Of a stretch of 61,022 nt of DNA, positions 13,170-27,310 are shown piece after piece. This DNA comes from a virus. A program made the translations under genes and the position numbers. The notes under the pieces were generated by a model. The model was not told where the DNA came from. It made no database searches and was given only the letters and a program-made list of their open reading frames with translations. Position 1 is the first letter of the stretch. Each line of letters begins with the position of its first letter. The stretch spans positions 1 through 61,022 of the IMG/VR virus record IMGVR_UViG_3300025816_001375. The stretch is one strand, 5' to 3'.

Positions 13170-15548
13170 TTAGTAAGTTCCGCCGTCTATGTCGCCGTAT
13201 GTTACGTTACTACCGTTTGATTGTAAAATTTTTCCATTATTACCAAGTGCTAATTTAGCAAGTGTGTTTGATCCACTTGCATATAAAATATCACCAGTAG
13301 TGTAAGAAGATTGTCCTGTACCACCATATACTTCGTCAATAACAGTACCTTGCCAAGTACCAGTTGCAATCGTACCTAAAGTAGTGATTGATGTTTGACC
13401 AGAATATGTTGTTTTAATTCTTAATGCGTCTGAAGATACTTCAATTGTAGAGTCATCTACAGCAACGTCTAACTGATTACCTGTTTTAGTTAAAGCGTCA
13501 CCAGCAGATATTTGACCAGCACCAGAGAATTGTTCAACTGTTATATCAGTTGTTCCTAATGTTGGAGTACCGTTATGTGTAAATACATAACCATTGTCAG
13601 CATTTGCATTACCAGCTTCTACGAATACAAAAGCACCACCTGTTATTTCAATTGCCTCATCACCATCAGGTGTTCTTGTTAATACGTATGCAGTTGATCC
13701 ATCACCAACAGTTGTTACTCTATATAAACCATTTTCAGTTGCGTCTGTCTGATTTTTTAATAAAATTCTATCATTTGTTGAAGGTGTTGCACCGTCAATT
13801 GAAAATGCGCCATTTGATCCTGCAGTTATTGTACCAGCACCGTTATCGTATGTACCAGCAACGTTTGCTGTTGAAGCATACTTAACAGAAGCTTTTACAT
13901 CTAAACCATTTGCAACACTATCAACATATGCTTTTGTAGCAGCGTCTTGTGCTGAAGATGGATCAGTTACGTTTGTTATTCTACTTGAATTAACATCAAC
14001 AGTACCAGTACCTTTAGGGTCAAGTATTAAGTCAATGTTTGAATCATCACCAGCAGTTCCTATTGTTACACCATTACCTGTAGCCGAGTTTGTAATTTCA
14101 ACAGCATTGACAGCATTTGAAGTTTGCTGAAATAATATCTGTTCATTACCACTTGCGTCAGCAATAAAGCCTGCGTCAGCAAATCTAGGTGTAGTTAATG
14201 TAGGACTTGTTAATGTTTTATTTGTTAAAGTTTGTGATCCTGTAAGTGTAGCAACTGTACTATCAATCGCAACTGTTAAAGTATTACCAGAACCAGATGT
14301 ATCAATACCAGTTCCTCCAGCGATTGTAAGTGTTTCAGAATCTAAATCTATGTTTAATGCACCACCAGAGTCACCTTGAAAGTCAAGGTCTTGTGCCGTT
14401 ACTTGTGAGTCAACATATGCTTTAATTGATTGTTGAGTTGCAAGTGCTGTGGCACTATTACTTGACATATTGTCTTCATCAGCAATAGCAGTAATACCAT
14501 CAAGTAAATTTAATTCAGTTGCTGTTGCAGTTAAGACAACGTCTTCATTAATTTTAGGTGATGTTAAAGTTTTGTTTGTTAATGTTTCTGTATTATCTAA
14601 TAATGAAACTGTACCAGTAGCGTTCGGGAACGTAATCGTTCTATCTGCTGTTGGGTCTGTTACCGTTAATGTAGTTTCATAATCATCAGCAGTTGCACCT
14701 TCAAATACAATTGAGCTATCAGTAATCGCCAAACCAGAAACGTTTGGTGATGTAATTGTTTTGTTAGTTAATGTTTCTGAACCTGTTGTAGAAACTAAAG
14801 TTGCGTCAGAAACAGCACTATTAAATTCTGCAAGAGTACCTGTTACTGTAGCTTCTGATAAATCTATTGTTAAAGTGTTTGAATCACTATTAATAGTTTT
14901 GTTCGTTAATATTTGACTACCAGTTAATGTTGCAACTGTGCTATCAATAGCAAATGAAACTTGGTTGTTAGATACTGTTGAATCAATACCAGTACCACCA
15001 GCAAGTGTTAAAGTTTCGCCAGTGTTAAATGTATCATCTGAACCAATATCAGCAGCAATTGTAAATTGACTTGAAGCTGGGGCAGCAAATGATAGGTTAC
15101 CAGAACCGTCTGTAGTTAATATATGACCATTAGAACCATCTGTACCAGGTAAAGTAAACGTTAAACTACTTGCAACACTATTGGGAGATTTTAATGCTAC
15201 AAAATGTGCACCGTTATTAGTACCTTCGTTGAATTTTATTGTACCACCAACTGTAGCAGAATTACCTATTAATAATTCGTCTATGGCCTTGTTTGAATCT
15301 ACTATTAGACCAGATGAAGCAGTTAATGTACCATGTGCATGGTCCATCAATTGAGTATAGTATTGTCCGCCTATCTGAATTGCTGCATTTGATGTTGATG
15401 ATGGATCACCTATGAATAGTCGTAATCCGTTACCACCAGCGCCTGTGCTGGCTGCCGATGTATCATAAACGTAGGCAAGTTCCCCTTGCTCTAGACCTGA
15501 AGGTGCGACAGCACCTGTGGTTCGTTTAATCTTTATAATTGTTGCCAT
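13170..15548 (-). CDS. Tail fibre protein with Mtd-like N-terminus and receptor-type C-terminal domain
   Basis: A 792-residue fibre. Residues 1-50 (MATIIKIKRTTGAVAPSGLEQGELAYVYDT) are the N-terminal fibre domain. The middle carries the same '[29 protein letters not shown]' and 'LTNKTLTSP' repeats as its neighbours. Beyond about residue 530 it has a different beta-rich domain ('SIDGATPSTNDRILLKNQTDATENGLYRV'). This is related to the one in the fibre at 41073 and common in cyanophage fibres. It ends in 'GKILQSNGSNVTYGDIDGGTY'. Likely host-binding. Confidence 0.82.
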   Translation of the reverse strand: MATIIKIKRTTGAVAPSGLEQGELAYVYDTSAASTGAGGNGLRLFIGDPSSTSNAAIQIGGQYYTQLMDHAHGTLTASSGLIVDSNKAIDELLIGNSATVGGTIKFNEGTNNGAHFVALKSPNSVASSLTFTLPGTDGSNGHILTTDGSGNLSFAAPASSQFTIAADIGSDDTFNTGETLTLAGGTGIDSTVSNNQVSFAIDSTVATLTGSQILTNKTINSDSNTLTIDLSEATVTGTLAEFNSAVSDATLVSTTGSETLTNKTITSPNVSGLAITDSSIVFEGATADDYETTLTVTDPTADRTITFPNATGTVSLLDNTETLTNKTLTSPKINEDVVLTATATELNLLDGITAIADEDNMSSNSATALATQQSIKAYVDSQVTAQDLDFQGDSGGALNIDLDSETLTIAGGTGIDTSGSGNTLTVAIDSTVATLTGSQTLTNKTLTSPTLTTPRFADAGFIADASGNEQILFQQTSNAVNAVEITNSATGNGVTIGTAGDDSNIDLILDPKGTGTVDVNSSRITNVTDPSSAQDAATKAYVDSVANGLDVKASVKYASTANVAGTYDNGAGTITAGSNGAFSIDGATPSTNDRILLKNQTDATENGLYRVTTVGDGSTAYVLTRTPDGDEAIEITGGAFVFVEAGNANADNGYVFTHNGTPTLGTTDITVEQFSGAGQISAGDALTKTGNQLDVAVDDSTIEVSSDALRIKTTYSGQTSITTLGTIATGTWQGTVIDEVYGGTGQSSYTTGDILYASGSNTLAKLALGNNGKILQSNGSNVTYGDIDGGTY

Positions 15549-15560
15549 TTTTTCTCCCTA

Positions 15561-15839
15561 TTAAAATGTGCCACCGTTTAATATTAAATTTCCACTTTCA
15601 GTTTTTATTTCAGTTCTCGTTACAAATTTTTTTGTTGTATCATCATATTGAATCATTGCACCATCATCTAGCGTTGAGGCATTTACGTCACTCAAACCAG
15701 TAAATTTATTTACATTACTTTGGAGTTGAGCAACAGATGGTGATGTGACCGATACGTTATTCGGTCCAGTTGAGTTACTATTAATCGTAGCTGTGGTGTT
15801 AGTACCTGTACTATACGTAGCAGTAATATCGTTTGACAT
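15561..15839 (-). CDS. Small fibre-associated protein
   Basis: A 92-residue Ser/Thr/Asn-rich protein (MSNDITATYSTGTNTTATIN...). The 'LSDVNASTLDDGAMIQYDDTTKKFV' segment is a short fibre motif found in many marine phage fibre proteins, and the C-terminal 'LILNGGTF' resembles the end of the fibre encoded next (GDIDGGTY). It is 12 nt upstream of the 792-residue fibre and is preceded by an exact late promoter. It is probably a fibre segment or connector; the assignment rests on composition and context. Confidence 0.65.
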   Translation of the reverse strand: MSNDITATYSTGTNTTATINSNSTGPNNVSVTSPSVAQLQSNVNKFTGLSDVNASTLDDGAMIQYDDTTKKFVTRTEIKTESGNLILNGGTF

Positions 15840-15869
15840 TTTTACCCTTATTAAATACTGTTATTACAA

Positions 15870-15877
15870 TATTTATA
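15870..15877 (-). promoter_or_regulatory. T4-type late promoter
   Basis: Exact TATAAATA on the minus strand, 30 bp before the gene starting at 15839. Confidence 0.7.
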
Positions 15878-15917
15878 ATAATAAGATACTAAATCAAAGG
15901 CAATTATGTAATTTCAA

Positions 15918-16202
15918 CTATTTTTTGTCAGCAGTTGCGTCAGAATTAGTTTCAGGTTTCTTTAACTCTATACCTAATTCTTTTGCAATTACAGCGTCAT
16001 AATGTGCCTGAAGAATTGCGACTTTTTCTAACTCTAAAGATAGTTTAATTTTAGTTGCTTGTAAATCTTGTCTTACAATAATGCAATTAAAAGTTTTAGG
16101 GTTTAAGTCACTTTTTTTATAGTCTTTACCGTCTATAGTAAATACTGCTTCTTGTGGCGCACTTGTCGGTGCTGTTGTCGTGTTGATTGCTTCACTACTC
16201 AT
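15918..16202 (-). CDS. Small hypothetical phage protein
   Basis: A 94-residue protein. An N-terminal Thr/Ala-rich stretch is followed by 'AVFTIDGKDYKKSDLNPKTFN' and a helical segment, then a charged tail. Short proteins with an 'F.IDGK.Y...DL' start and a following helix are common in structural regions of marine T4-like phages, next to the protein type encoded at 16222. The function is unknown. It is possibly a chaperone or a tail-associated coiled-coil protein. Confidence 0.6.
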   Translation of the reverse strand: MSSEAINTTTAPTSAPQEAVFTIDGKDYKKSDLNPKTFNCIIVRQDLQATKIKLSLELEKVAILQAHYDAVIAKELGIELKKPETNSDATADKK

Positions 16203-16221
16203 GTTGTATATCTCCTTATTA

Positions 16222-16557
16222 TTATACGTTAGGTCTAACAGTCATTAGACCCTCAATTACTCTTGTTACTGTACCTGAAGAGTCTGTTATGTCCATATCG
16301 AACACATATCTTGCAGGTGCTTCTAAAGCTGCTGTTTGCGTTGCAGTTAGTGACATAGTGATACCACCTGTCGTTCTATCTGCTGTAAATTCTATGGTTA
16401 AATCTGTACGTGTTCTTGTACTCGCATAACCCAAAGCCATCTTTGCAGTTGCCGTATAACCAGTTAAATCTAACGGACTTCCCGCACTATCTTTAACTGT
16501 TACCGTTGAACTGAAAGTAGTTCCTTGATCTATCGTAAAATTTGCTACAGCTGCCAT
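16222..16557 (-). CDS. Beta-rich phage structural protein (BppU N-terminal-like)
   Basis: A 111-residue protein starting MAAVANFTIDQGTTFSSTVTV with 'GSPLDLTGYTATAKM' and a C-terminal 'YVFDMDITDSSGTVTRVIEGLMTVRP'. This pattern is shared by a widespread family of short phage virion proteins resembling the N-terminal domain of upper baseplate proteins. It is the most distal gene of the left fibre block. A late promoter lies 6 bp before the ATG, back to back with the sigma70-like promoter of the TonB receptor. Confidence 0.7.
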   Translation of the reverse strand: MAAVANFTIDQGTTFSSTVTVKDSAGSPLDLTGYTATAKMALGYASTRTRTDLTIEFTADRTTGGITMSLTATQTAALEAPARYVFDMDITDSSGTVTRVIEGLMTVRPNV

Positions 16558-16562
16558 ACTAC

Positions 16563-16570
16563 TATTTATA
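16563..16570 (-). promoter_or_regulatory. T4-type late promoter
   Basis: Exact TATAAATA on the minus strand, 6 bp before the gene that starts at 16557. The spacing implies an almost leaderless late transcript. Confidence 0.65.
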
Positions 16571-16579
16571 CATACACTA

Positions 16580-16607
16580 TTGACTTTTTTTTAAAAAGTG
16601 ATATTAT
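16580..16607 (+). promoter_or_regulatory. Sigma70-like promoter of the TonB receptor gene
   Basis: -35 TTGACT (16580-16585), 16 bp spacer, -10 TATTAT (16602-16607), then 5 nt to the ATG at 16613. The predicted start of transcription is at or just before the ATG. No Shine-Dalgarno fits in this space. Confidence 0.6.
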
Positions 16608-16612
16608 ATAGT

Positions 16613-18223
16613 ATGCACAAAATTTTAATAATTTTAACATTTTTATTTAGTAATATATTATTTGCAGCCGAAAACGACTGTCAATGGGAAAATGAAACTC
16701 CTTGTGTTATTATATCTAAATCAAACATAACAAATTCTAACAAAATTGGTGATAAAATTACACCGAGTATTTCTATAACAAAAAATCAAATAGAAAAATA
16801 CAATCTTATAGATTTAGCAAAAACTTTAAATTTTATTCAAAGCTTAGAAGTATCTCAATCAGGTCCTACAGGACAACAAGGATCAGTTTTTTTTAGAGGC
16901 ACTAATTCAAATCACGTTTTAGTTTTATTAAACGGTATACCAATAAATGATTATTCTACACCAACAGGTGCATTTGATATTGGACAAGATTTTATGTTCA
17001 ATGTACAACAGATAGATGTTTACAAAGGATCATCTGGTGCTCATTGGGGCGCTGACGCTGTAGGAGGTGCAATTAATTTTAGAACAACTATTGACTATGA
17101 AAAAAAATTAAATATTTCAGGAAATCATAACGATAAAACAATTAGTGGAAATTATTATACTAATATAAATGACTTTGATATATCCGTATCAGCAGGAGAA
17201 CATCAATCAAAAAATATATCAGCACTCTCTGGTGCTAATGAAAAGGATGGAACAGAAAATAAATCTCTTTCACTAAACGTAAGTAAATGGTATGACTTAT
17301 TACATTGGAGAACAAGTTTTTTTACAAGAAATACGTTTACCGATTTAGATGGACATAATGTACTTGTACAAAATGATAAATGGTCCGATAATACATTTTA
17401 TGCTTTTCAAACAGGACTAGATTACAAAAACAGTAGTTTAACTTTACATACACACCAATATGATAGGAACTATGATGATGATTATTATAAAAGTCAAAAC
17501 TATACGCTAAAGGCTACACAACAATATGAAAACTATGGTTTTGGATTTGATTATAAACACAATGAATCGTTAAACAATCAACATCATAATTTAGGATATT
17601 TTTTTAATTTATCATATGACATATTTTCCTATCATCACAGATTTGATGAAGAACACGAAACGCATAAGTTAGGATTTTTTAAAGAAATACAAGATGGATT
17701 AAGTATAAGTGGAAGTACATCTACAAGTTATAAAGACAAAACTACCTGGACAGCTATCGAGTATGGTGAAACACAGGAATTAACGTTAACTAAAAATAAT
17801 TTTTCAACAACAGTTTTTAAAAACGATATAGGTAATTTAAATACGGATGGTATTGAACTTGCTTATAATCTTAATGATATTAAATTTTTTGCAAGTCATC
17901 TTAACAGCAAAACAAACGATACGGTAACACTAAGACGCCCTAATTGGTCACTAGGATTTATTCACAATTATGATTTTAAAAATAACTTTTCACTAACCAC
18001 AAATTACAAATATAAAGGCGAACATTTAGATGTACATAACTCTAATTGGTCAACAATCTCAATGCCTGAAACACATTTATTAGATTTAAATATTGGTTAT
18101 AATTATTATGGAATAAAATTTGGTGTAAGTGCAACAAACCTTTTAAATGAAAATTATGAGTCACCTCACGGATTTAACCAAGAAGGTAGAAAATTAACTT
18201 TAGGTTTTAATAAGTCTTTCTAA
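16613..18223 (+). CDS. TonB-dependent outer-membrane receptor (BtuB/CirA-like)
   Basis: A 536-residue protein. It has a signal peptide (MHKILIILTFLFSNILFA, cleavage about residue 18) and a plug domain (about residues 40-155). The plug contains 'VFFRGTNSNHVLVLLNGIPIND', 'IDVYKGSSGAHWGADAVGGAINF'-type motifs diagnostic of TonB-dependent receptors. A C-terminal beta-barrel ends in Phe (LGFNKSF), the outer-membrane assembly signal. Length is short compared with BtuB (about 600). 'TPCVIISK' near the mature N-terminus could be the TonB box. The family imports cobalamin, siderophores, haem or glycans using host TonB/ExbBD; the substrate is not readable. An alternative GTG start at 16598 overlaps the promoter spacer, so ATG 16613 is preferred. 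Such receptors are very unusual phage cargo. The stop overlaps that of the convergent rSAM gene. Confidence 0.9.
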   Translation: MHKILIILTFLFSNILFAAENDCQWENETPCVIISKSNITNSNKIGDKITPSISITKNQIEKYNLIDLAKTLNFIQSLEVSQSGPTGQQGSVFFRGTNSNHVLVLLNGIPINDYSTPTGAFDIGQDFMFNVQQIDVYKGSSGAHWGADAVGGAINFRTTIDYEKKLNISGNHNDKTISGNYYTNINDFDISVSAGEHQSKNISALSGANEKDGTENKSLSLNVSKWYDLLHWRTSFFTRNTFTDLDGHNVLVQNDKWSDNTFYAFQTGLDYKNSSLTLHTHQYDRNYDDDYYKSQNYTLKATQQYENYGFGFDYKHNESLNNQHHNLGYFFNLSYDIFSYHHRFDEEHETHKLGFFKEIQDGLSISGSTSTSYKDKTTWTAIEYGETQELTLTKNNFSTTVFKNDIGNLNTDGIELAYNLNDIKFFASHLNSKTNDTVTLRRPNWSLGFIHNYDFKNNFSLTTNYKYKGEHLDVHNSNWSTISMPETHLLDLNIGYNYYGIKFGVSATNLLNENYESPHGFNQEGRKLTLGFNKSF

Positions 18224-19473
18224 CTTTGTACAGCAATATTATTGTGTTGATTAAGTTTATCTAAATCTTGTTGATAATGTTTTACTTTATCTAAAGCGTG
18301 TTGTTGAAACTGATAACCTAGGTCTTGTGCCAACTTCATCAATTTTTTAAACCTATCAAATCTAATTGAAAAATCTGAATTTTCGTTTTTCCAATGATAG
18401 CCAAATTCTGAATTAAATAAATCTCTATGTTCAAGGTCTAATGGTGTGTTTTGAAAAGTTATCATTATATGGTGTGAGATAGTAATTTTTTTAGCATACT
18501 TTCTATACTTTCTTAACATATCTAAAGTTTCTTCAAAGTCTTTTTCTGTTTCTGTAGGGTAACCACATATAAGTAAAAACTTCATATCTATATTACGTTC
18601 ACCCAAATTTGTAACAAAGTATTCTATATCATCATTGCTAAACTTCTTTTTCATATGGTGTCTTACTTGTTCACTACCTGACTCTATACCCATTTCTAAT
18701 ACACCACAACCAGATTTAGATAAGTTATCAAAGTCTTGTTGAGAGAAAGTCTTTTTATCTCTAACAATAAACTGAGCATCCCATTTTATCTTCTTCTTTC
18801 TACTTGCTAACTCATGGCATAAATCTCTAAAGTGTTTCATTGATCCATTGATTAGAGAATCTGAAAATACTATCTTGTCAAAACCTGTAGCGTCAGCAAC
18901 TTGGTGCATATCATCAGCAATCTTTTTACCTGTCTTCCATCTATACTTTGGCCATATTGACATAACATCACAAAAGGTACACTTACGAACACAACCTCTA
19001 CTACCAGATATAACTGCTCTATCGTATTTGTGTTGATGTATTGTATCTGAATAATCAGGTGGTGGCAAACTTTCTATGTCTTCCATCTGTACAGGATCTT
19101 TACCATTGATGCCAGGAAAATCTAAATCACCTTCTAAAAATGCTTTGAGAGCATGTTCTTCACCTCTTATAAAAGGTTTTCTAGGCCAATTCTTATCTAC
19201 ACCAGAACCACCAAACAATACGTTCTTATAAGGTTCAGCAAGTTTTAAAGCATCATCTTTCTGTAGAAAAGAAAAAACAGATATGCCCAACCATTTATAT
19301 TCGTACTTTGCAATTTCTTTATGTATGTTTTCTAAAGTATCTAATTGATTGCCATCTATGACTTTAACTTTATAACCAAAAGGTTCTAGGTAACCTTTTA
19401 TAAATGCAGGACCTGGTGCAGGTTTACCTTTATCCATTCCTGGTAAAGATGTAATTACTAAATCATAAATCAT
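18220..19473 (-). CDS. Radical SAM protein with cobalamin-binding-type N-terminal domain
   Basis: A 417-residue protein. The N-terminal 130 residues have the Rossmann-like order of B12-binding domains ('LEPFGYKVKVIDGN', 'KWLGISVFSF', 'VLFGGSGVD'), without a DxHxxG cobalamin lower-ligand motif, as in many members. The radical SAM domain has CVRKCTFC (C161, C165, C168) for the [4Fe-4S] cluster, followed by 'VFSDSLINGS' and 'VLEMGIESGSEQVR', which are typical of the B12-binding radical SAM group. Members methylate unreactive carbons or rearrange small molecules. The substrate is unknown. The ATG overlaps the stop of the 2OG-oxygenase gene (ATGA), so the two are co-translated. Confidence 0.87.
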   Translation of the reverse strand: MIYDLVITSLPGMDKGKPAPGPAFIKGYLEPFGYKVKVIDGNQLDTLENIHKEIAKYEYKWLGISVFSFLQKDDALKLAEPYKNVLFGGSGVDKNWPRKPFIRGEEHALKAFLEGDLDFPGINGKDPVQMEDIESLPPPDYSDTIHQHKYDRAVISGSRGCVRKCTFCDVMSIWPKYRWKTGKKIADDMHQVADATGFDKIVFSDSLINGSMKHFRDLCHELASRKKKIKWDAQFIVRDKKTFSQQDFDNLSKSGCGVLEMGIESGSEQVRHHMKKKFSNDDIEYFVTNLGERNIDMKFLLICGYPTETEKDFEETLDMLRKYRKYAKKITISHHIMITFQNTPLDLEHRDLFNSEFGYHWKNENSDFSIRFDRFKKLMKLAQDLGYQFQQHALDKVKHYQQDLDKLNQHNNIAVQS

Positions 19474-19916
19474 TGCAATGCGCCTACAATATGAATCCTA
19501 TCTATTTTTGAACAGTTTAAAGCTGTATGATTTTTTGTAGTATCTACAACATACGCCGTACCGTCAGCAGGCAAATGTATTCTATCTTCATCTATTAGTA
19601 GGAAACAATGAGGATGTGTATAAACTGGTATGTGTAATCTTTTTGTTTTATCAGCGTGCCATAGATAACAACTTTTAGGCCTCATTTTCATTAATCGAGT
19701 TCTTACTAAATTATTTTGTTTTATAATATTATTAATATAAGGTATATCGTCAAATAAAGGAATATTGTAAGTATGCTCTGTATGATCTACATCATATCCT
19801 TTATCAGCACCTTCTTCAGGATTCATTTCTTTTGAGTAACCTTGTAGATACAATTGTTTTTCGTATTTTGGTAGTCTTTTCAACTCTTTTTTAATGATTT
19901 CTAAATCGTATCGCAT
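19470..19916 (-). CDS. 2OG-Fe(II) oxygenase, aspartyl/asparaginyl beta-hydroxylase-like
   Basis: A 148-residue double-stranded beta-helix protein. Candidate iron ligands are H87, D89 (the 'WHAD' HxD motif) and H130. R93 ('TKRLHIPV') and R140 ('RIHIVG') fit 2-oxoglutarate binding in the Asp/Asn beta-hydroxylase family, and the order H-x-D...R-L-H-I-P...H...N...R-I-H is the family signature. It would hydroxylate a peptide or small-molecule carbon. It is the first gene of a two-gene minus-strand operon with the radical SAM enzyme, suggesting that the two act on the same substrate. Confidence 0.75.
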   Translation of the reverse strand: MRYDLEIIKKELKRLPKYEKQLYLQGYSKEMNPEEGADKGYDVDHTEHTYNIPLFDDIPYINNIIKQNNLVRTRLMKMRPKSCYLWHADKTKRLHIPVYTHPHCFLLIDEDRIHLPADGTAYVVDTTKNHTALNCSKIDRIHIVGALQ

Positions 19917-19930
19917 ACAGATATTTAGTC

Positions 19931-19967
19931 TATAAATATTGACGTAATTGAAAGGATATGTTATAAT
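19931..19967 (+). promoter_or_regulatory. Dual promoter (late + sigma70-like) for the accessory operon
   Basis: An exact T4-type late octamer TATAAATA (19931-19938) is directly followed by TTGACG (-35, 19939-19944), a 17 bp spacer and TATAAT (-10, 19962-19967). The ATG follows 6 nt later at 19974. From the -10 box onward it shares 18 identical bases with the promoter at 55593. Both early and late expression of the operon are therefore possible. Confidence 0.7.
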
Positions 19968-19973
19968 AGTATT

Positions 19974-20867
19974 ATGAAAAATGTAAATATAGTATGTACA
20001 AGTAAACCTGGTGATGGCCTTTTAAGATATAGTTATGAACATTGTTGTTATCTTAATAATTTAGGCCTTGATATTAAAGCCAACTTAATAATTATACCAA
20101 ACAAAAAACACACACAACAAGATTATATTGATGCTTTAGTGGAACAATACATTAAAGTTGAAAACATAATTTTTGATTTTTATATAGCTAAACCTGAAGA
20201 CATAACTTTAGTTATGGGTAGAAGTATGATCACTTTAGCTCATTTAGATTATATAGATTATAGCGAAACGCAAAAATTAACTTTACATCAATTATTTAAT
20301 AACAAAATTATATCTGTATATTCAGAAAATCATCCTAAAGATTATGATTTAGCTTTAAAACGTTTTAATCCTAAAAAAGTTATTGACTTATGTGACTTTG
20401 ATGTTTATAAAAATGGCGTAGGTCATCAATTTGAAAAGATTATAAACTTTAGTATATACAAATCATTTAAACACGATATAAAATATCAGTATTTATTTTT
20501 AGGAACAAATAAAACTTATTACGAAGCAGTTGAGGATGTTATTAGTAAAAACTGGCTTTTATATCAATCACATGGTATTATAACTTATCCAGACAAATAT
20601 TTAAATTCAAAATATAATAATTTAAATGTGCCAGTAAAAAATCTATTAGGTTCGTTTGAAACATATGCTTATACAAAACCTAATTTTGATCCTGCACCAC
20701 GTATCATACAAGAATGTAAATACTTTGGTAAAAAAGTATTATATTTAAGAGATAAAGAAATACAAGATGGTGGTCCTGTTTACTGGAAAAGAGAAGCAAA
20801 TTGTTTAACTGATAAACGAAATGAAGATAAAATATCAAACTTGATAACCGCAATCTATAGAATGTAA
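19974..20867 (+). CDS. Putative glycosyltransferase (GT-B-like)
   Basis: A 297-residue protein with no signal peptide. The N-terminus ('NVNIVCTSKPGDGLLRYSYEHCCYLNNLG') fits the first Rossmann half of GT-B enzymes. Near the C-terminus 'FDPAPRIIQECKYFGKKVLYL' followed by 'DGGPVYWKRE' resembles the donor-binding helix region (E...GK.V) of phage-encoded glycosyltransferases. It is the first gene of a contiguous plus-strand operon and its transcript is probably leaderless. The next ATG uses the last A of its stop codon. The enzyme class is moderately supported; the sugar is unknown. Confidence 0.55.
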   Translation: MKNVNIVCTSKPGDGLLRYSYEHCCYLNNLGLDIKANLIIIPNKKHTQQDYIDALVEQYIKVENIIFDFYIAKPEDITLVMGRSMITLAHLDYIDYSETQKLTLHQLFNNKIISVYSENHPKDYDLALKRFNPKKVIDLCDFDVYKNGVGHQFEKIINFSIYKSFKHDIKYQYLFLGTNKTYYEAVEDVISKNWLLYQSHGIITYPDKYLNSKYNNLNVPVKNLLGSFETYAYTKPNFDPAPRIIQECKYFGKKVLYLRDKEIQDGGPVYWKREANCLTDKRNEDKISNLITAIYRM

Positions 20868-21580
20868 TGTATAATAACTCAAACTTTATAAACAAAATAA
20901 AACCACAATTATCGTCTTTCTTCCACGAACAATTTTTTACAAGAGATGGTGGAGAAAATCCTGGTGTTAATGTTGATTTATCAGCTAGATGTGGATTAGA
21001 GTGTATGAGATGTCAAAGGCAAACTTACTATGAAAATAACAAAGATATACCTGGCCACGATTTAACAATAGATGATTTTATTAAAATAACTGATATGTTT
21101 AAAACAATTAATTTTTGTGGTCAATTATCTGATCCTGTTCACAATGAATATTTTATTGATATATTAAAATTGTGTAAAATGAAAAACGTAGGTGGCACAA
21201 TTCACAATGCGTCTTCGTTAAAATCTAAAGAGTGGTATATAAAGGCATTTAAAGCACATCCTGATATGCGTTGGGTTTTTGGTATAGATGGTTTACCTAA
21301 AGATAGTTTTAAGTATAGAGTAAACCAAGACGGTGAAAAATTATTTGATATAATGATAGAAAGTAAAAAATATTTAAACACTACACCTTTTTGGCAATAT
21401 ATTATATTTTCTTATAATGAAAATGATATAGATGAAGCAAGAAAAATAGCACAAAATAATGGCGTTAACCTTAATCTCACTTATTCATCCAAGTGGTTTT
21501 CTGAAGACGATCCTTTAATGCCTAAAAACAAAGATTATAGAATATGGTCTAATCAATATGGAGGCATAAATGAAGTTTAG
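20867..21580 (+). CDS. Radical SAM protein, first copy of the GQxSDP family
   Basis: A 237-residue stand-alone radical SAM core. CGLECMRC (C42, C46, C49) binds the [4Fe-4S] cluster. Where most members have a GGE motif for the SAM amino group, this one has 'FCGQLSDPVHNEYF' (about residues 84-97). 'GIDGLPKDSFKYRVNQDGEKLFD' and 'FWQYIIFSYNEND' are shared with the proteins at 21905 and 55934. The chain ends before any auxiliary cluster domain. That domain is encoded by the next gene, which starts 11 nt before this stop in the +1 frame. Probable role: peptide, sugar or cofactor modification as a two-subunit enzyme. Confidence 0.85.
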   Translation: MYNNSNFINKIKPQLSSFFHEQFFTRDGGENPGVNVDLSARCGLECMRCQRQTYYENNKDIPGHDLTIDDFIKITDMFKTINFCGQLSDPVHNEYFIDILKLCKMKNVGGTIHNASSLKSKEWYIKAFKAHPDMRWVFGIDGLPKDSFKYRVNQDGEKLFDIMIESKKYLNTTPFWQYIIFSYNENDIDEARKIAQNNGVNLNLTYSSKWFSEDDPLMPKNKDYRIWSNQYGGINEV

Positions 21581-21908
21581 GCCTAAATGCTTAATATCTA
21601 ATACACAAATGGCTGTAGATAATAGAGGTAGATTACTACCTTGTTGTTATATTGATACACCTAGATGGATTGAATATCCTGAAATTAAAAAGTTATTAAA
21701 TGTTAGTGACATAAGTAAAAATAAAAGTTTAAAAGATATAATAACTTCAGATGAATGGAAAGAGTTTTATAATACTTTAAAAAAAGGTGTCTTAAATAAA
21801 ATACCTGATGTATGTAAACATCATTGTTTAGATGATGGTGAAGATAAATTAAAAATAGAAGAATGGTTTGATCCGTCTGGCAATATGTTTGAAAGAAAAG
21901 GCAAATGA
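21570..21908 (+). CDS. Free-standing SPASM/twitch-like Fe-S subunit, partner of the preceding rSAM
   Basis: A 112-residue protein equivalent to the C-terminal auxiliary-cluster domain of SPASM/twitch radical SAM enzymes. C7, then 'AVDNRGRLLPCC' (C25, C26), 'SLKDIITSDEWKEF', and 'VCKHHC' (C82, C86) follow the C-x(n)-G-x(n)-C...C-x3-C order. It lacks the middle CxxCx5C part of full SPASM domains, so it may bind one cluster. The ATG (21570) is preceded by GGAGG with a 5-nt gap and overlaps the rSAM stop by 11 nt, which indicates coupled translation and probably a heterodimer. Confidence 0.78.
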   Translation: MKFRPKCLISNTQMAVDNRGRLLPCCYIDTPRWIEYPEIKKLLNVSDISKNKSLKDIITSDEWKEFYNTLKKGVLNKIPDVCKHHCLDDGEDKLKIEEWFDPSGNMFERKGK

Positions 21909-22561
21909 ACGATATATCATTTTATAGAAGATCAAAAAAAGGTATAAACATTGACATAAGTAATAGGTGTCCACTAGAGTGTATGAGATGTCAAAGACAA
22001 ACCAACTTTACACTTGAAGGCAGAAAAGTTTATGGTAGGGATGCTACAATGGATGAAGTAAGAAAGCTATCTGATTATTTTTCATCATTTAATTTCTGTG
22101 GTCAATTATCTGATCCTGTTCATCATCCTAAATTTGTTGAAATATTAGAATATCTTTATAAAAAAGAAATTCAAGTTACAGTACATAATGCCTCATCACA
22201 AAAACCTAAAGACTGGTATATAAAAGCATTTAAAGCCCATCCTAAAGCAAAATGGATATTTGCAATAGATGGTTTACCCGAAGAAAGTAATATGTATCGT
22301 ATCAACCAAGATGGTCAAAAGTTATATGAGGTTATGTTAGAGGCAAAGAAACATTTACAACAAACGCCATCATGGCAGTTTATAGTGTTTAGTTATAACG
22401 AACACAATTTAGAAAAGGCAAAACAAATGGCTAAAGATAATGGTTTAATGTTTATTATTTTACATTCATCACGTTGGATGGGAGAAGATGATCCTTTAAG
22501 ACCAAAGGAAAAAGAATATAATTTAGGATATAAAGGATATATTAGACCTTATGAAAGATAA
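21905..22561 (+). CDS. Radical SAM protein, second copy of the GQxSDP family
   Basis: A 218-residue paralogue of the protein at 20867, shorter at the N-terminus. CPLECMRC (C22, C26, C29) is the cluster motif. 'FNFCGQLSDPVHHPKFVEILEYL' replaces the usual GGE region. 'AIDGLPEESNMYRINQDGQKLYEVM' and 'SWQFIVFSYNEHN' align with the first copy. It starts with an ATGA overlap on the first SPASM subunit, so the two rSAM/SPASM pairs read as a tandem duplication within the operon. Different N-termini and divergence suggest different substrates or heteromeric assembly. Confidence 0.85.
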   Translation: MNDISFYRRSKKGINIDISNRCPLECMRCQRQTNFTLEGRKVYGRDATMDEVRKLSDYFSSFNFCGQLSDPVHHPKFVEILEYLYKKEIQVTVHNASSQKPKDWYIKAFKAHPKAKWIFAIDGLPEESNMYRINQDGQKLYEVMLEAKKHLQQTPSWQFIVFSYNEHNLEKAKQMAKDNGLMFIILHSSRWMGEDDPLRPKEKEYNLGYKGYIRPYER

Positions 22562-22925
22562 AAAAGATAAATTAGAAGGTAAATTTGTTGCTCAATGTAT
22601 GAATGGTAAAATGCAAATGGCAATGAGTAATAGAGGTCATCTATTACCTTGTTGTTGGTGCGACCAAGAATGGACATTAAGCACACCTTTATTTCAAAAA
22701 ATGTTAAAAGTAAGTAAAGTAAGTGAAGCAGAAAACATAGATGAAATAGTATTATCAGATGAATGGAGAGAGTTTGAAAAAATAATGAAAGAAGGTGAAG
22801 CAGGTGATCATAGTAGAGTGCCTAAAAACTGTTTGTATCATTGTCTAGTTAGACCAGACGACAATATAAAAATAGAACATCATTTAGACGAGAAAGGTAA
22901 ATCAATAGTAAAAAATAAAGTATGA
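22551..22925 (+). CDS. Free-standing SPASM/twitch-like Fe-S subunit, second copy
   Basis: A 124-residue paralogue of the protein at 21570. Cysteines are C16, C34, C35, C37 ('GHLLPCCWC') and C94, C98 ('NCLYHC'), with the linking 'EIVLSDEWREFEK' helix also conserved. As in the first pair, its ATG begins 11 nt before the rSAM stop and lies in the +1 frame. An AAAGGA sits about 15 nt upstream, farther than ideal, so initiation probably depends on translation of the rSAM gene. One extra Cys (C37) distinguishes it from the first copy. Confidence 0.78.
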   Translation: MKDKKDKLEGKFVAQCMNGKMQMAMSNRGHLLPCCWCDQEWTLSTPLFQKMLKVSKVSEAENIDEIVLSDEWREFEKIMKEGEAGDHSRVPKNCLYHCLVRPDDNIKIEHHLDEKGKSIVKNKV

Positions 22926-23605
22926 AAAAACTAATAGTAAGCGGCTGTAGTTGGGGTGATAGTCATTTCTTTTCACCTTTTCATCCTGAGATGGATTGTG
23001 ATTGGCCTAAATGGCCTGAACTATTGGCAAAAAAACTAAACATGGAGTGTGTTAATCTTTGTAAATGTGGTGCAGGACAAGAATACATTTATTCATCTAT
23101 ATCAGATTATATACAAAGCATACCTAAAGATGAAATTGGTACAATTATGGCTGCTTGGTCTACAGCGCCTAGACGTTGTTATAGTATAGGCAACAGATGG
23201 ACAAATGATAGACAAGATATAAGAGGCGACCTAAAATATTGGATAGAAAGAAGTATAAGATATCAATATGCTTTTCAAAATCTTATGGAACAATACAAAC
23301 TACCGTATATACATTTTCAAATGATTAGTTTATATAAAGGTCATTTGTGGGAGATAAGAAGAAAACAAAATGTTAATGAACAATATTTACAAAAATTAAG
23401 AAAAGATACACTAGACTTAATTAAAAATACTAACTACAAATTTAATGATAAATTTTTAGGGTGGCCTGTAGATGAGGAATTAGGTGGTAAAACAATTGAA
23501 ATGGGTGTATTAAGTGAAGAACACAGAATATCAGAACTGGATAGACATCCTAACGCAAAAGGGCAACAGAAAATAGCGGAGTACTTATATGACAGGTTGG
23601 GATAG
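22922..23605 (+). CDS. SGNH/GDSL-like hydrolase
   Basis: A 227-residue cytoplasmic protein. Block I is 'VSGCSWGDS' with the Ser nucleophile candidate near residue 9. Block V is 'DRHPNAKGQQKIAEYLY', with the catalytic D-x-x-H pair near residues 206-209. 'KCGAGQEYI' fits block II (Gly). SGNH enzymes remove or add acyl groups on sugars and lipids. In a glycan locus, O-acetyl transfer or removal on a sugar is the natural guess. A paralogue on the minus strand at 51110 shares 'GCSW', 'RWPSMLADKL' and 'HPN..G..KIA'. The ATGA overlap with the SPASM gene keeps it in the operon. Confidence 0.7.
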   Translation: MKKLIVSGCSWGDSHFFSPFHPEMDCDWPKWPELLAKKLNMECVNLCKCGAGQEYIYSSISDYIQSIPKDEIGTIMAAWSTAPRRCYSIGNRWTNDRQDIRGDLKYWIERSIRYQYAFQNLMEQYKLPYIHFQMISLYKGHLWEIRRKQNVNEQYLQKLRKDTLDLIKNTNYKFNDKFLGWPVDEELGGKTIEMGVLSEEHRISELDRHPNAKGQQKIAEYLYDRLG

Positions 23606-24641
23606 AGATTATCTAGCAAACAAAGATGAATACTTAAAACTTTTTGATAATGTTATGCAAAAAGAAAACGAAAGAAACGTTGAGTTTTTAGAAAAGAATA
23701 TTACAAGTATTATAAAAAGAAAGTATGCTGTAACATGTGCTAGTGGTACAGACGCTTTACGTTTTGCTCTAATGGCACTTGATTTAGGACCTGGTGATGA
23801 GATAATGACTACAAACTTTTCATGGATATCTACAGCGTCTTGTATATCAATGGTAGGTGCAACACCTGTATTTTGTGATATTGATTTAGAAACTTATCAT
23901 ATGTCAATTGATAGTATTAAACGTATGTATTCTGATAAAGTAAAGGCAATAGTGTATCCACATCTGTTTGGTAATATATCTGATATGACAGAAATACAAA
24001 ACTTTTGTGAAGATAAGAATATAAAACTAGTAGAGGATGCTTGTCAATCTTTTGGTGCAAATAGAGGTGGTCAATATGCAGGTACATATGGTGATATTGC
24101 AACGTTAAGTTTTAATGCAAACAAACCTGTTGCAGGTATATCAGGTGGTGGCGCTGTTTTACTAGACAATAAAACTCAAGCAGACTTTATTAGAAAATTA
24201 AAAAGACACGGTAACAACGAAGTATTAGGTTATAACTCTAAAATGTTGGCAATCAATGCTGAGTTTATAAATTTCAGAATATCTAAAATGCACGAATGGC
24301 AAGATAAAAGATTTAGAGTTGCAAAGAGATATGATAATTTATTAAAAGACCTTGTAACAATACAAAAGGTTGATGAAACAGTTAATCATTGTTATCACAA
24401 ATACGTTATAAGATTAGAGAATAAAGAAATAAGAGATACCTTAAAGAAAAGACTAGGTGCAGCTGTACACTATCCTAATCCTATATCGGAAAATGTAATG
24501 TATAATTCTATTATACATAGAAAAGATAGCTGCTTGAATAGTCAACAAATATGTGATACAATACTAACATTACCTATTCATCCATATTTAACAAATGATG
24601 AAATAGATAATACTTGTAATATAATTATGGCAACAGTATGA
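23589..24641 (+). CDS. DegT/DnrJ/EryC1/StrS-type sugar aminotransferase
   Basis: A 350-residue PLP enzyme that transfers an amino group from glutamate to a nucleotide-linked keto-sugar. 'CASGTDALRFAL' near residue 50 binds the cofactor phosphate. 'VEDACQSFGA' (D150) contacts the pyridine nitrogen. The Schiff-base lysine is K179 in 'LSFNANKPVAG'. 'PHLFGN' and 'GDIATLSF' are family signatures. Length is a little under the usual 365-400. The start overlaps the SGNH gene by 17 nt. It implies that an amino-deoxy sugar is made during infection. Confidence 0.9.
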   Translation: MTGWDRDYLANKDEYLKLFDNVMQKENERNVEFLEKNITSIIKRKYAVTCASGTDALRFALMALDLGPGDEIMTTNFSWISTASCISMVGATPVFCDIDLETYHMSIDSIKRMYSDKVKAIVYPHLFGNISDMTEIQNFCEDKNIKLVEDACQSFGANRGGQYAGTYGDIATLSFNANKPVAGISGGGAVLLDNKTQADFIRKLKRHGNNEVLGYNSKMLAINAEFINFRISKMHEWQDKRFRVAKRYDNLLKDLVTIQKVDETVNHCYHKYVIRLENKEIRDTLKKRLGAAVHYPNPISENVMYNSIIHRKDSCLNSQQICDTILTLPIHPYLTNDEIDNTCNIIMATV

Positions 24642-24955
24642 ATGAAATAATAATTAGTCCATCTTTTAAAACTTTCTGTTATTTTGATAATAACAATAAT
24701 ATGATTGACATAACAGATAAAATACCTTTTAGACTTTTAGAGTTAATTAAAAAAATGAGATATATCTTTGGTAATGATATAGTGCTTGATAAGTCTTTGA
24801 TAACAGATGACATTGAGGATATCTATCATTATATAATAGAAAAAGCCTATGAAAGATCAGACTACATATTTGAAGAAATAAATTTTAAAGATAAAGCAAA
24901 AGAAAAATTGTTATCTGCTTTCAATAAATTCTTTTTTGAAAAGTTTAATAAATGA
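24638..24955 (+). CDS. Hypothetical operon protein
   Basis: A 105-residue protein of no recognised family. It starts MNEIIISPSFKTFCYFDNNNNMIDITDKIP and is otherwise helical and rich in Lys/Glu/Phe. Short ATGA overlaps on both sides (24638 and 24952) show that it is translated with the aminotransferase and the radical SAM protein that follows. Its small size and position before an rSAM gene would suit a carrier or recognition partner. It has no leader-peptide or RRE pattern I can identify. Confidence 0.65.
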   Translation: MNEIIISPSFKTFCYFDNNNNMIDITDKIPFRLLELIKKMRYIFGNDIVLDKSLITDDIEDIYHYIIEKAYERSDYIFEEINFKDKAKEKLLSAFNKFFFEKFNK

Positions 24956-25806
24956 AAACATTAAAAGAAATACAAGAAAACTATTTAGCCATAGACTTTT
25001 TTATGTCTATGTCTTGTAATAAAGATTGCCATTATTGTACAAGTTATACTTTAGAAATGAGAAACTTGACGGTTGATATAGATTTCCTAAAACAAACACT
25101 AGACTATTTAAAAAATTATAAGATACGTGTTTGTCTTCTAGGTGGTGAGCCAGGCCTAATTAAAAATTTAGATGATGTAATTGCTGAAGTTAAAAGCAGA
25201 CCTAATCACGTATGCTCAGTACTATCAAACTCCTTTGTACGTAAAAGATATCCACATATACTAAAAGATCCTGATATACTTTATATTGAACATAATATAT
25301 TAGATTTCTATGAAAACGAAATTAAAAAACTTGGTAGTTTAGATTTACTACCACCTTACGGTTTCATACAACCAAATGAATACAATAATTACAATCTATG
25401 CGTAAAGACACCTAATTATTTTAAATACAAAGATAACTTTCCAGAAGAAATGAAACAGTTAGATCACAAAAATACAATGTGGAAATCATTTAATGGTAGA
25501 ACACCTAATAAAGATGATGTATTAGCAGTACATACTCAAGCTGCTGAAATAGATCGTAAGATGTGTGCAGCTTTTCCTATGGTACCTGTTATTAATTTTG
25601 AAACAAGAAAACTTGTTCATTGTAGTAAGAAGTTTGCCAATAACGCAATTCATTCTAAAACATTTGACATAACACAGGAAAATATAGACAAGATGATGAA
25701 TTTCAGATTATTTAAATATGAAAATTATTGTAAAAATTGTATGGAATGGGTGCAACCTAAAGGACATTTTCCAATATCAAAATATGCGAGTGTATTAAAT
25801 GATTAA
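24952..25806 (+). CDS. Radical SAM protein with C-terminal Cys cluster
   Basis: A 284-residue radical SAM enzyme distinct from the GQxSDP family. CNKDCHYC (C22, C26, C29) binds the catalytic cluster, and a canonical GGEP motif is at residues 64-67. A C-terminal set, C205, C224 ('LVHC'), C260 and C263 ('NYCKNC'), probably holds an auxiliary cluster, so it is a fused version of the split pairs upstream. It overlaps the carbamoyltransferase gene by 8 nt. Substrate unknown; the context suggests a sugar or peptide in the same pathway. Confidence 0.82.
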   Translation: MKTLKEIQENYLAIDFFMSMSCNKDCHYCTSYTLEMRNLTVDIDFLKQTLDYLKNYKIRVCLLGGEPGLIKNLDDVIAEVKSRPNHVCSVLSNSFVRKRYPHILKDPDILYIEHNILDFYENEIKKLGSLDLLPPYGFIQPNEYNNYNLCVKTPNYFKYKDNFPEEMKQLDHKNTMWKSFNGRTPNKDDVLAVHTQAAEIDRKMCAAFPMVPVINFETRKLVHCSKKFANNAIHSKTFDITQENIDKMMNFRLFKYENYCKNCMEWVQPKGHFPISKYASVLND

Positions 25807-27310
25807 AATAAATGCAGTAGCTTTAAATCTACACGACCATAATGCTTATGATGGTGTATTTCATAATCAAAGAGAAAGACATACTAGATTTAAACACAAT
25901 TTACCTTATCACGCTGAGGCATACAATCATCAATCAGACATATTAAATCCTGGTGATTATAGACTAAATGATGAATTTACTGAAAAATATTTTAAAAAAC
26001 CTGATAATGGTATATTAGCATTTACTTATACTTTTGGAGGTATAAGAAAATCTAAAGAAGAACTACTAAAGACTGTTTTAAAAGGCCACGATGAAATATT
26101 TGATTATAATCCTAAAACTTTATGGGATAATTATTACAAAGACAATATTTACTTTATAGACCATCATCAATCTCACGCAGCTTATGCCTTTTTAAATTCA
26201 GGTTTTTTAGAGTCAGATATACTTGCTATTGATGGAATAGGTTCTAAATTTAGATGTGTTTTTTTTGATAAGGATTATAACTTGATAGATTTATCAGATA
26301 AATTACCTATTGGTTGGTTATGGAATCATATGTCAAATCTTACAGGTTTTGGCACACTTGGTGCAAGTAAACTTATGGGTAAAGTTGGATATGGAAAATA
26401 TAGCGACTACTATTACAACACCTTTGAAATTATATTTGACGGTCCTATTACAGAAAGAAAACAAGAACATTTTAAAGAAATTGATATAGATAAACATGGA
26501 ATTGATGATCTTGCATTTACCTTACAAAAATTTACTATTGATAAAATTAAAGAGTATGTATTACCACTAAAAACAACTAATAAATTATGTATTGCTGGCG
26601 GTGTCGCATATAATGGATATATGAATGAAATGTTTACTGAATATTATGATGATGTATTTGTACCACCTGCTATAGGTGATGAAGGACAAGCTATAGGTGT
26701 TTATCAACACGCTGACTATATGTTAAATAAAAATATACATAAATCAAACTTATATGCTGGTAAAGAATACGAATTTACTGGTGATGAAAAAGTAGATTAT
26801 AGAGAAGTGGCACAAGCGATTGCTGATGGTAAAATAGTAGGTTGGTTTCAAGGCAAATCAGAAAGTGGTAATCGTGCATTGGGTAATAGAAGTATTTTAG
26901 CAGACCCACGTAATCCTAATATTAAAGATATTATTAATAGTACAATTAAAATGAGAGAAGATTTTAGACCATTTGCACCTGCAGTATTAGAAGAACAATA
27001 TAAAGAATATTTTGATACAAGATTGCCTAGTCCATATATGAGTAGAATATGTAAAGTTAAAACCGATAAAGTTCCTGGTATCACACACGTTGATGGTACG
27101 GCCAGAATACAAACAGTTAATAAAAACGATAATGAAAAGTTTTATAAATTATTATTAGAGTTTTGGTGCATTACAGGTATACCTATGTTATTAAATACAA
27201 GTTTTAATTGTCAGGAACCAATTGTTGAAACACCTAAACAAGCCATCAGAACTTTTAAAAGAACAGCACTAGACTTGCTAGTTATAGGAGATTATATAAT
27301 AAGAAAATGA
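25799..27310 (+). CDS. NodU/CmcH-type O-carbamoyltransferase
   Basis: A 503-residue carbamoyltransferase that moves a carbamoyl group from carbamoyl phosphate, via carbamoyl-AMP, to a hydroxyl, usually on a sugar. The N-terminal Kae1-like half shows 'DHHQSHAAYAFLNSGF' (metal-binding His residues), 'AIDGIG', 'LCIAGGVAYNGYMNE' and 'PPAIGDEGQAIG'. The C-terminal half shows 'QGKSESGNRALGNRSILADPR' and 'REDFRPFAPAV', family hallmarks, and ends with 'LLNTSFNCQEPIVETP'. Somewhat short of the 550-600 usual. Known in several marine phages. It overlaps the methyltransferase by ATGA. Confidence 0.92.
   Translation: MIKINAVALNLHDHNAYDGVFHNQRERHTRFKHNLPYHAEAYNHQSDILNPGDYRLNDEFTEKYFKKPDNGILAFTYTFGGIRKSKEELLKTVLKGHDEIFDYNPKTLWDNYYKDNIYFIDHHQSHAAYAFLNSGFLESDILAIDGIGSKFRCVFFDKDYNLIDLSDKLPIGWLWNHMSNLTGFGTLGASKLMGKVGYGKYSDYYYNTFEIIFDGPITERKQEHFKEIDIDKHGIDDLAFTLQKFTIDKIKEYVLPLKTTNKLCIAGGVAYNGYMNEMFTEYYDDVFVPPAIGDEGQAIGVYQHADYMLNKNIHKSNLYAGKEYEFTGDEKVDYREVAQAIADGKIVGWFQGKSESGNRALGNRSILADPRNPNIKDIINSTIKMREDFRPFAPAVLEEQYKEYFDTRLPSPYMSRICKVKTDKVPGITHVDGTARIQTVNKNDNEKFYKLLLEFWCITGIPMLLNTSFNCQEPIVETPKQAIRTFKRTALDLLVIGDYIIRK

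Follow-up and report, generated by a model that had tools for sequence, protein, structure and literature searches.

Phages can supply their hosts with uptake and cofactor functions, such as PstS of cyanophages, for phosphate, and the pelagimyophage cobS/cobT genes, for cobalamin synthesis, which are cited in PMC9599517. TonB-dependent-receptor proteins are also encoded by phages, a SusC-type receptor in marine phage Mar_Mega_1 (PMC9723777) and an annotated TonB receptor in pelagiphage Skadi (PMC10504331), and no connection with B12 or with a riboswitch was made for either. Riboswitch Scanner returned no riboswitches in a pelagimyophage survey (PMC7029224), and those that a later paper detected in the pelagimyophage group were all of the glutamine type (PMC9004378). 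In SAR11, the probable host group, the cultured Pelagibacter strains HTCC1062 and HTCC1002 are without TonB-dependent transporters (PMC3400609), and a 2022 paper stated the B12 regulation of SAR11 btuB as unknown (PMC9296465). We found no earlier report in the open literature of a phage cobalamin riboswitch or a phage B12 receptor. The locus analyzed here would add B12 uptake, with a regulatory RNA in its relatives, to the functions that phages supply.

We analyzed a 61-kb virus record (61,022 nucleotides), the whole of which we refer to as the window. Its 2,033-aa VrlC-type protein is nearest to those of the Pelagibacter phages Mosig (60.6%) and HTVC008M (45.7%), and we therefore group the window phage with the T4-like pelagimyophages; by this relatedness, its host is most likely a SAR11 bacterium. 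Pelagimyophages have a hypervariable cluster for host recognition between VrlC and gp14 (PMC7029224). The gene under study lies in the fibre block, between tail-fibre-type genes, as the preliminary description of this DNA had placed it. The leftward genes are of tail-fibre type on the minus strand, and a divergent tail-fibre-assembly-type gene (16222 to 16557, minus strand; PHROG 1084/3304) precedes it. On the other side, a convergent gene encodes a 417-aa radical-SAM protein of the B12-binding type (18220 to 19473, minus strand), followed by a neighbor that resembles Asp/Arg beta-hydroxylases (19470 to 19916, minus strand) and by a plus-strand block that begins at 19974 and includes genes of the radical-SAM, DegT-type aminotransferase, and carbamoyltransferase kinds. 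The 417-aa protein matched Pfam Radical_SAM at 8.9e-16 and, weakly, the B12-binding domain at 2.4e-4, which is under the cut-off, and most of the NCBIfam models nearest to it describe B12-dependent radical-SAM methyltransferases. These matches make it a likely cobalamin consumer. The convergent gene is kept in the same orientation in four phage contigs (L001, L009, L012, and L018), a result that shows synteny only, since the radical-SAM profile is not specific for B12 binding and was trained partly on the window's own protein.

The reading frame of the receptor gene is open from 16598 to 18223 on the plus strand. The conserved start among relatives is the ATG at 16613, which gives a protein of 536 aa (16613 to 18223), and the GTG at 16598 was rejected as a start. 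The hydrophobic N terminus, read by eye from the sequence as a signal peptide (MHKILIILTFLFSNILFA; 16613 to 16666), is kept across the phage and SAR11 relatives and is directly followed by AEN. The mature N terminus (16667 to 16762) is flexible, with low pLDDT in the structure model, and carries a Cys pair (C23 and C31) that is invariant in the alignment. A TonB-box-like segment, PCVIISK, aligns where BtuB has DTLVVTA and may act as the TonB box. The plug domain (16763 to 17104) matched PF07715 above the cut-off (E = 3.8e-18), and the remainder (17105 to 18220) is a predicted beta-barrel of 22 strands, whose outer loops are short and conserved and which ends in a C-terminal Phe. An AlphaFold2 model built on an alignment of 50 relatives placed the plug inside the barrel (pLDDT 86, pTM 0.86); an earlier structure model from 13 close homologues was discarded (pLDDT 37). 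The C-terminal residue is F or Y in all full-length phage relatives, even where the flanking residues differ. The outer loops are about as conserved as the barrel strands (0.865 versus 0.878) and are not hypervariable; two of them, L10 and L11, show conservation across the phage and SAR11 receptors. These features bear out the earlier reading of the gene as encoding a TonB-dependent receptor with a signal peptide, a plug, and a C-terminal Phe, and the predicted protein is complete and apparently functional.

A search of the PDB with the model returned 233 significant matches, the best 11 of which were all Escherichia coli BtuB (best TM 0.83/0.76), with siderophore receptors ranking behind; SusC was only a distant fold match (TM 0.69/0.48). 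Two BtuB models (TIGR01779 and NF007926) were also the best family matches in NCBIfam. The scores of 83 and 94 bits are far under the equivalog cut-offs of 600 and 836, and for this reason we describe the receptor as BtuB-like rather than assign it to BtuB. The protein has in common with BtuB (PDB 1nqh and 2gsk) the plug and 22-strand barrel, the terminal Phe, and the position of the TonB-box-like stretch, and orthologues of the phage receptor are under riboswitch control. It differs from BtuB in its sequence (18% identity), its shorter outer loops, its N-terminal Cys pair, and its being encoded by a phage, and TonB was not found in the SAR11 genomes that bear its relatives. The Skadi protein did not come up in the phage search with the window receptor.

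Directly before the gene lies a sigma70-like promoter, TTGACT-16-TATTAT with an extended -10 element (TGATATTAT; 16580 to 16607, plus strand), with a consensus score of 10 out of 12. The number of such matches in the window is not above chance (34 found versus 28 expected), so the promoter is credible because of its conservation and spacing only. Nine contigs share, without a single difference, a block of about 38 nt that contains the promoter and runs up to the ATG, whereas the sequence immediately before the block is variable. The -10 box ends 5 nt before the ATG, and this spacing with a score of at least 10 occurs at only 11 of the 2,191 ATGs in the window and at 3 of the 61 gene starts. 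Given this distance, we infer a leaderless transcript with a predicted start at or next to the ATG. The host-type promoter claimed in the preliminary description is thus upheld by the identical block and its rare spacing. Leaderless-type sigma70 arrangements are also present before 19974 (19939 to 19974) and before 55605, the latter with a perfect TTGACA-16-TATAAT, and each starts a plus-strand gene block.

Two scans found the receptor in at least 74 viral contigs at 43 to 99% identity, and its synteny is conserved among phage contigs. In a separate phage collection, no genuine phage homologue covered most of the query, the matches being bacterial-looking BtuB records or distant pieces, and the receptor is missing from 15 of the 40 phage records examined. 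Full-length cellular relatives in the genome scan came only from SAR11 single-cell or draft genomes (31 to 37% identity). In the tree, all phage receptors group in a single clade that adjoins the one from SAR11 (100/98), and this argues for an old acquisition. The dN/dS ratio of 0.06 to 0.14 shows that the receptor is under strong purifying selection, in agreement with its functional look in the first reading. That reading had also held that phages rarely encode such proteins; the contigs show instead that marine T4-like phages of the SAR11 type often carry such TonB-dependent receptors and that the window copy is no one-off.

Of 147 Pelagibacteraceae genomes, 35 carried such a receptor, always as a single copy. 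Where inspected, the SAR11 receptors lie in variable O-antigen/glycan-type islands with radical-SAM genes. They belong to the family of the phage receptor over their full length and share its N-terminal CxW...PC motif and loops L10 and L11, but they are longer (about 615 to 628 aa versus 536), lie in a host glycan island, and adjoin a riboswitch and a gene for DUF6580, a small membrane protein. At 7 of 10 SAR11 receptor loci, Rfam placed an AdoCbl-II riboswitch directly before the gene. With a riboswitch model built from these SAR11 copies and one phage copy, 27 of the 147 genomes were positive, each with a single copy, and all positives fell among the receptor-bearing genomes (27/35 versus 0/112). 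This distribution points to regulation of the SAR11 receptor by the riboswitch. DUF6580, which typically adjoins the receptor, was found in 32/35 receptor genomes versus 2/112 others (P = 2e-26). B12-binding domains over the cut-off followed the receptor as well (32/35 versus 17/112), and the co-occurrence of the receptor with B12-binding radical-SAM proteins (P = 1e-16) was stronger than that of a radical-SAM-associated control family, SPASM (22/35 versus 41/112). None of the 147 genomes had MetH, and SAR11 is reported to be without MetE and MetH (PMC12478193), which makes the B12-dependent radical-SAM proteins plausible B12 consumers. That a quarter of Pelagibacteraceae genomes have a B12-regulated receptor linked with B12-binding radical-SAM proteins thus hints at why SAR11 may need B12. 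No TonB C-terminal domain was over the cut-off in 15 receptor-bearing SAR11 genomes (G001 to G015), and the ExbD-family genes inspected in such genomes were tolR. Either the receptor is powered by TolA/TolQR or a divergent TonB was missed.

AdoCbl-II riboswitches (RF01689) over the Rfam gathering score were present just upstream of phage receptors as well (L008, L009, L011, L013, L018, L110, and L146), and our own model was positive at 26 of 64 viral receptor loci. In the window, Rfam found no riboswitch, also when the threshold was relaxed around the receptor gene, and our own model was negative there as well. Among 24 distinct riboswitch sequences, 17 of 23 helix pairs had changes on both sides, with a covariation score of 0.54 versus 0.19 when shuffled and at most 0.11 when slid. 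Contig L009, a syntenic orthologue, has the gene order of the window, including the convergent 417-aa radical-SAM gene, and its leader runs promoter, riboswitch, ribosome site, and ATG. In L012, a nearly identical promoter leads directly into the ATG, an arrangement that the window resembles. The two leaders indicate that the riboswitch is a module gained or lost at the receptor leader, and loss would be the simpler reading, since both SAR11 and the deepest-branching phage lineage (L146) have the riboswitch. The preliminary description had missed both this riboswitch, which lies between promoter and gene in the syntenic orthologues, and the adjacent reverse-strand radical-SAM gene of B12 type. 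L009 and L012 also differ in their signal peptides but hardly at all in the mature sequence that follows, a pattern that a joint swap of leader and signal peptide would produce.

A scan of viral contigs for the SAR11-like switch identified further T4-like phages in which a single operon unites riboswitch, DUF6580, and receptor. These operons adjoin replication genes (helicase, gp32-like, and UvsX), and one such contig is 243 kb. DUF6580 was found in at least 93 viral contigs; among 80 of these loci that we examined (L277 to L356), 37 had the receptor in the sequence retrieved around them, and the riboswitch was present in 17. Viral DUF6580 often occurs without an adjoining receptor, in records that include ones of 328 kb and 243 kb. 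The DUF6580 profile had no match in the PDB, and the family is at most a candidate ECF/BtuM-like carrier. DUF6580 was not found in the window, where the host might supply it. Across 40 virus records, a B12-binding domain was present in 17 of the 26 with receptor or DUF6580 and in none of the 14 with neither (P = 4e-5), a value that is optimistic because of shared ancestry, the records being fragments from about six lineages and the receptor-or-DUF6580 grouping having been made after we saw the one exception.

We consider it probable that the gene encodes a BtuB-type cobalamin receptor of a T4-like, probably SAR11, phage that raises B12 uptake for radical-SAM enzymes and has been freed from its riboswitch. 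Cobalamin is the most likely substrate, judged from the riboswitches, the structure, and the co-occurrence. The receptor would be made early in the infected cell from its host-type promoter and would insert in the outer membrane, where it would increase cobalamin uptake. The imported cobalamin could then serve B12-dependent radical-SAM enzymes of the phage, such as that at 18220 to 19473, or of the host glycan island; both the timing of expression and the benefit to the phage are predicted. In the bacterial and several of the phage relatives, the riboswitch would shut the receptor gene when B12 is plentiful. The window lineage appears to have lost it, and we propose that its receptor is for that reason expressed regardless of B12.

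Iron and cobalamin had both been offered earlier as possible imports. Cobalamin is favored by the riboswitches, the structure, and the co-occurrence; iron-siderophore uptake is disfavored, as BtuB ranks above all siderophore receptors in both the structure and the sequence searches. A receptor merely of BtuB descent that takes up another scarce ligand (an iron-siderophore, heme, or another corrinoid-like cofactor) would suit the low identity to BtuB, the short barrel loops, and the missed equivalog cut-off, but the cobalamin riboswitches on orthologues and the conservation of L10 and L11 between phage and SAR11 also speak against it, and we hold it to be improbable. We give a similarly low likelihood to surface remodelling, in which the phage protein would replace or mask the host receptor, or act as a decoy, so that competing phages using the SAR11 receptor could not adsorb. 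TonB-dependent receptors are common phage receptors, BtuB among them (PMC8624392), the gene sits among tail-fibre and glycan genes, and the SAR11 receptors occupy variable O-antigen-type islands. However, the outer loops are conserved like the barrel, dN/dS is low, and a decoy would need neither a B12 riboswitch nor co-occurring B12-binding enzymes, so the earlier idea that the protein blocks other phages or is a decoy found no positive support.

The patchy presence of the receptor among phage records could be read as a selfish or recently captured host gene without a role in infection. This is very unlikely given an ancient single phage clade, strong purifying selection, the invariant promoter block, and the number of contigs that carry the gene. 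A bacterial contaminant or an assembly chimera, for which we found nothing beyond the host-like function of the protein, has next to no probability. No break at either gene end, as such an artifact would leave, is seen in the contigs: L006 spans window positions 16191 to 26193 at 91% and L003 spans 14985 to 22919 at 89%, both unbroken across the two receptor junctions, and phage genes flank the receptor on both sides. These independent contigs rule out a chimera.

Beyond the probable cobalamin receptor of the window, we put forward a wider proposal, to which we give an even chance: marine T4-like SAR11 phages would carry a portable B12 module of riboswitch, DUF6580 inner-membrane protein, and BtuB-like receptor that senses the B12 of the cell and feeds B12-dependent radical-SAM enzymes. 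Lineages like that of the window would have been cut loose from this control, with constitutive expression from a leaderless host-type promoter, and DUF6580 would act as a previously unrecognized transporter of cobalamin in the inner membrane, which gives this family a testable function. That SAR11 viruses carry a probable B12 gate, often with the B12-sensing RNA switch of the host, suggests that the infected cell is refitted for B12 uptake, and, if this is true, viruses influence who takes up the B12 of the ocean.

A second, more distant receptor type, with an open frame of about 602 aa, was present in four viral records (G181, G185, G196, and G197), which have DUF6580 near this receptor and two B12-binding proteins each. 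Another kind of phage, represented by L142, L144, and L145, has a KedN5-like methylcobalamin-dependent radical-SAM gene directly after the receptor, with a lysis gene of the amidase/endolysin type adjoining. Within a few kilobases upstream of the receptor, L132 and L126 carry a tmRNA and L129 carries several tRNAs.
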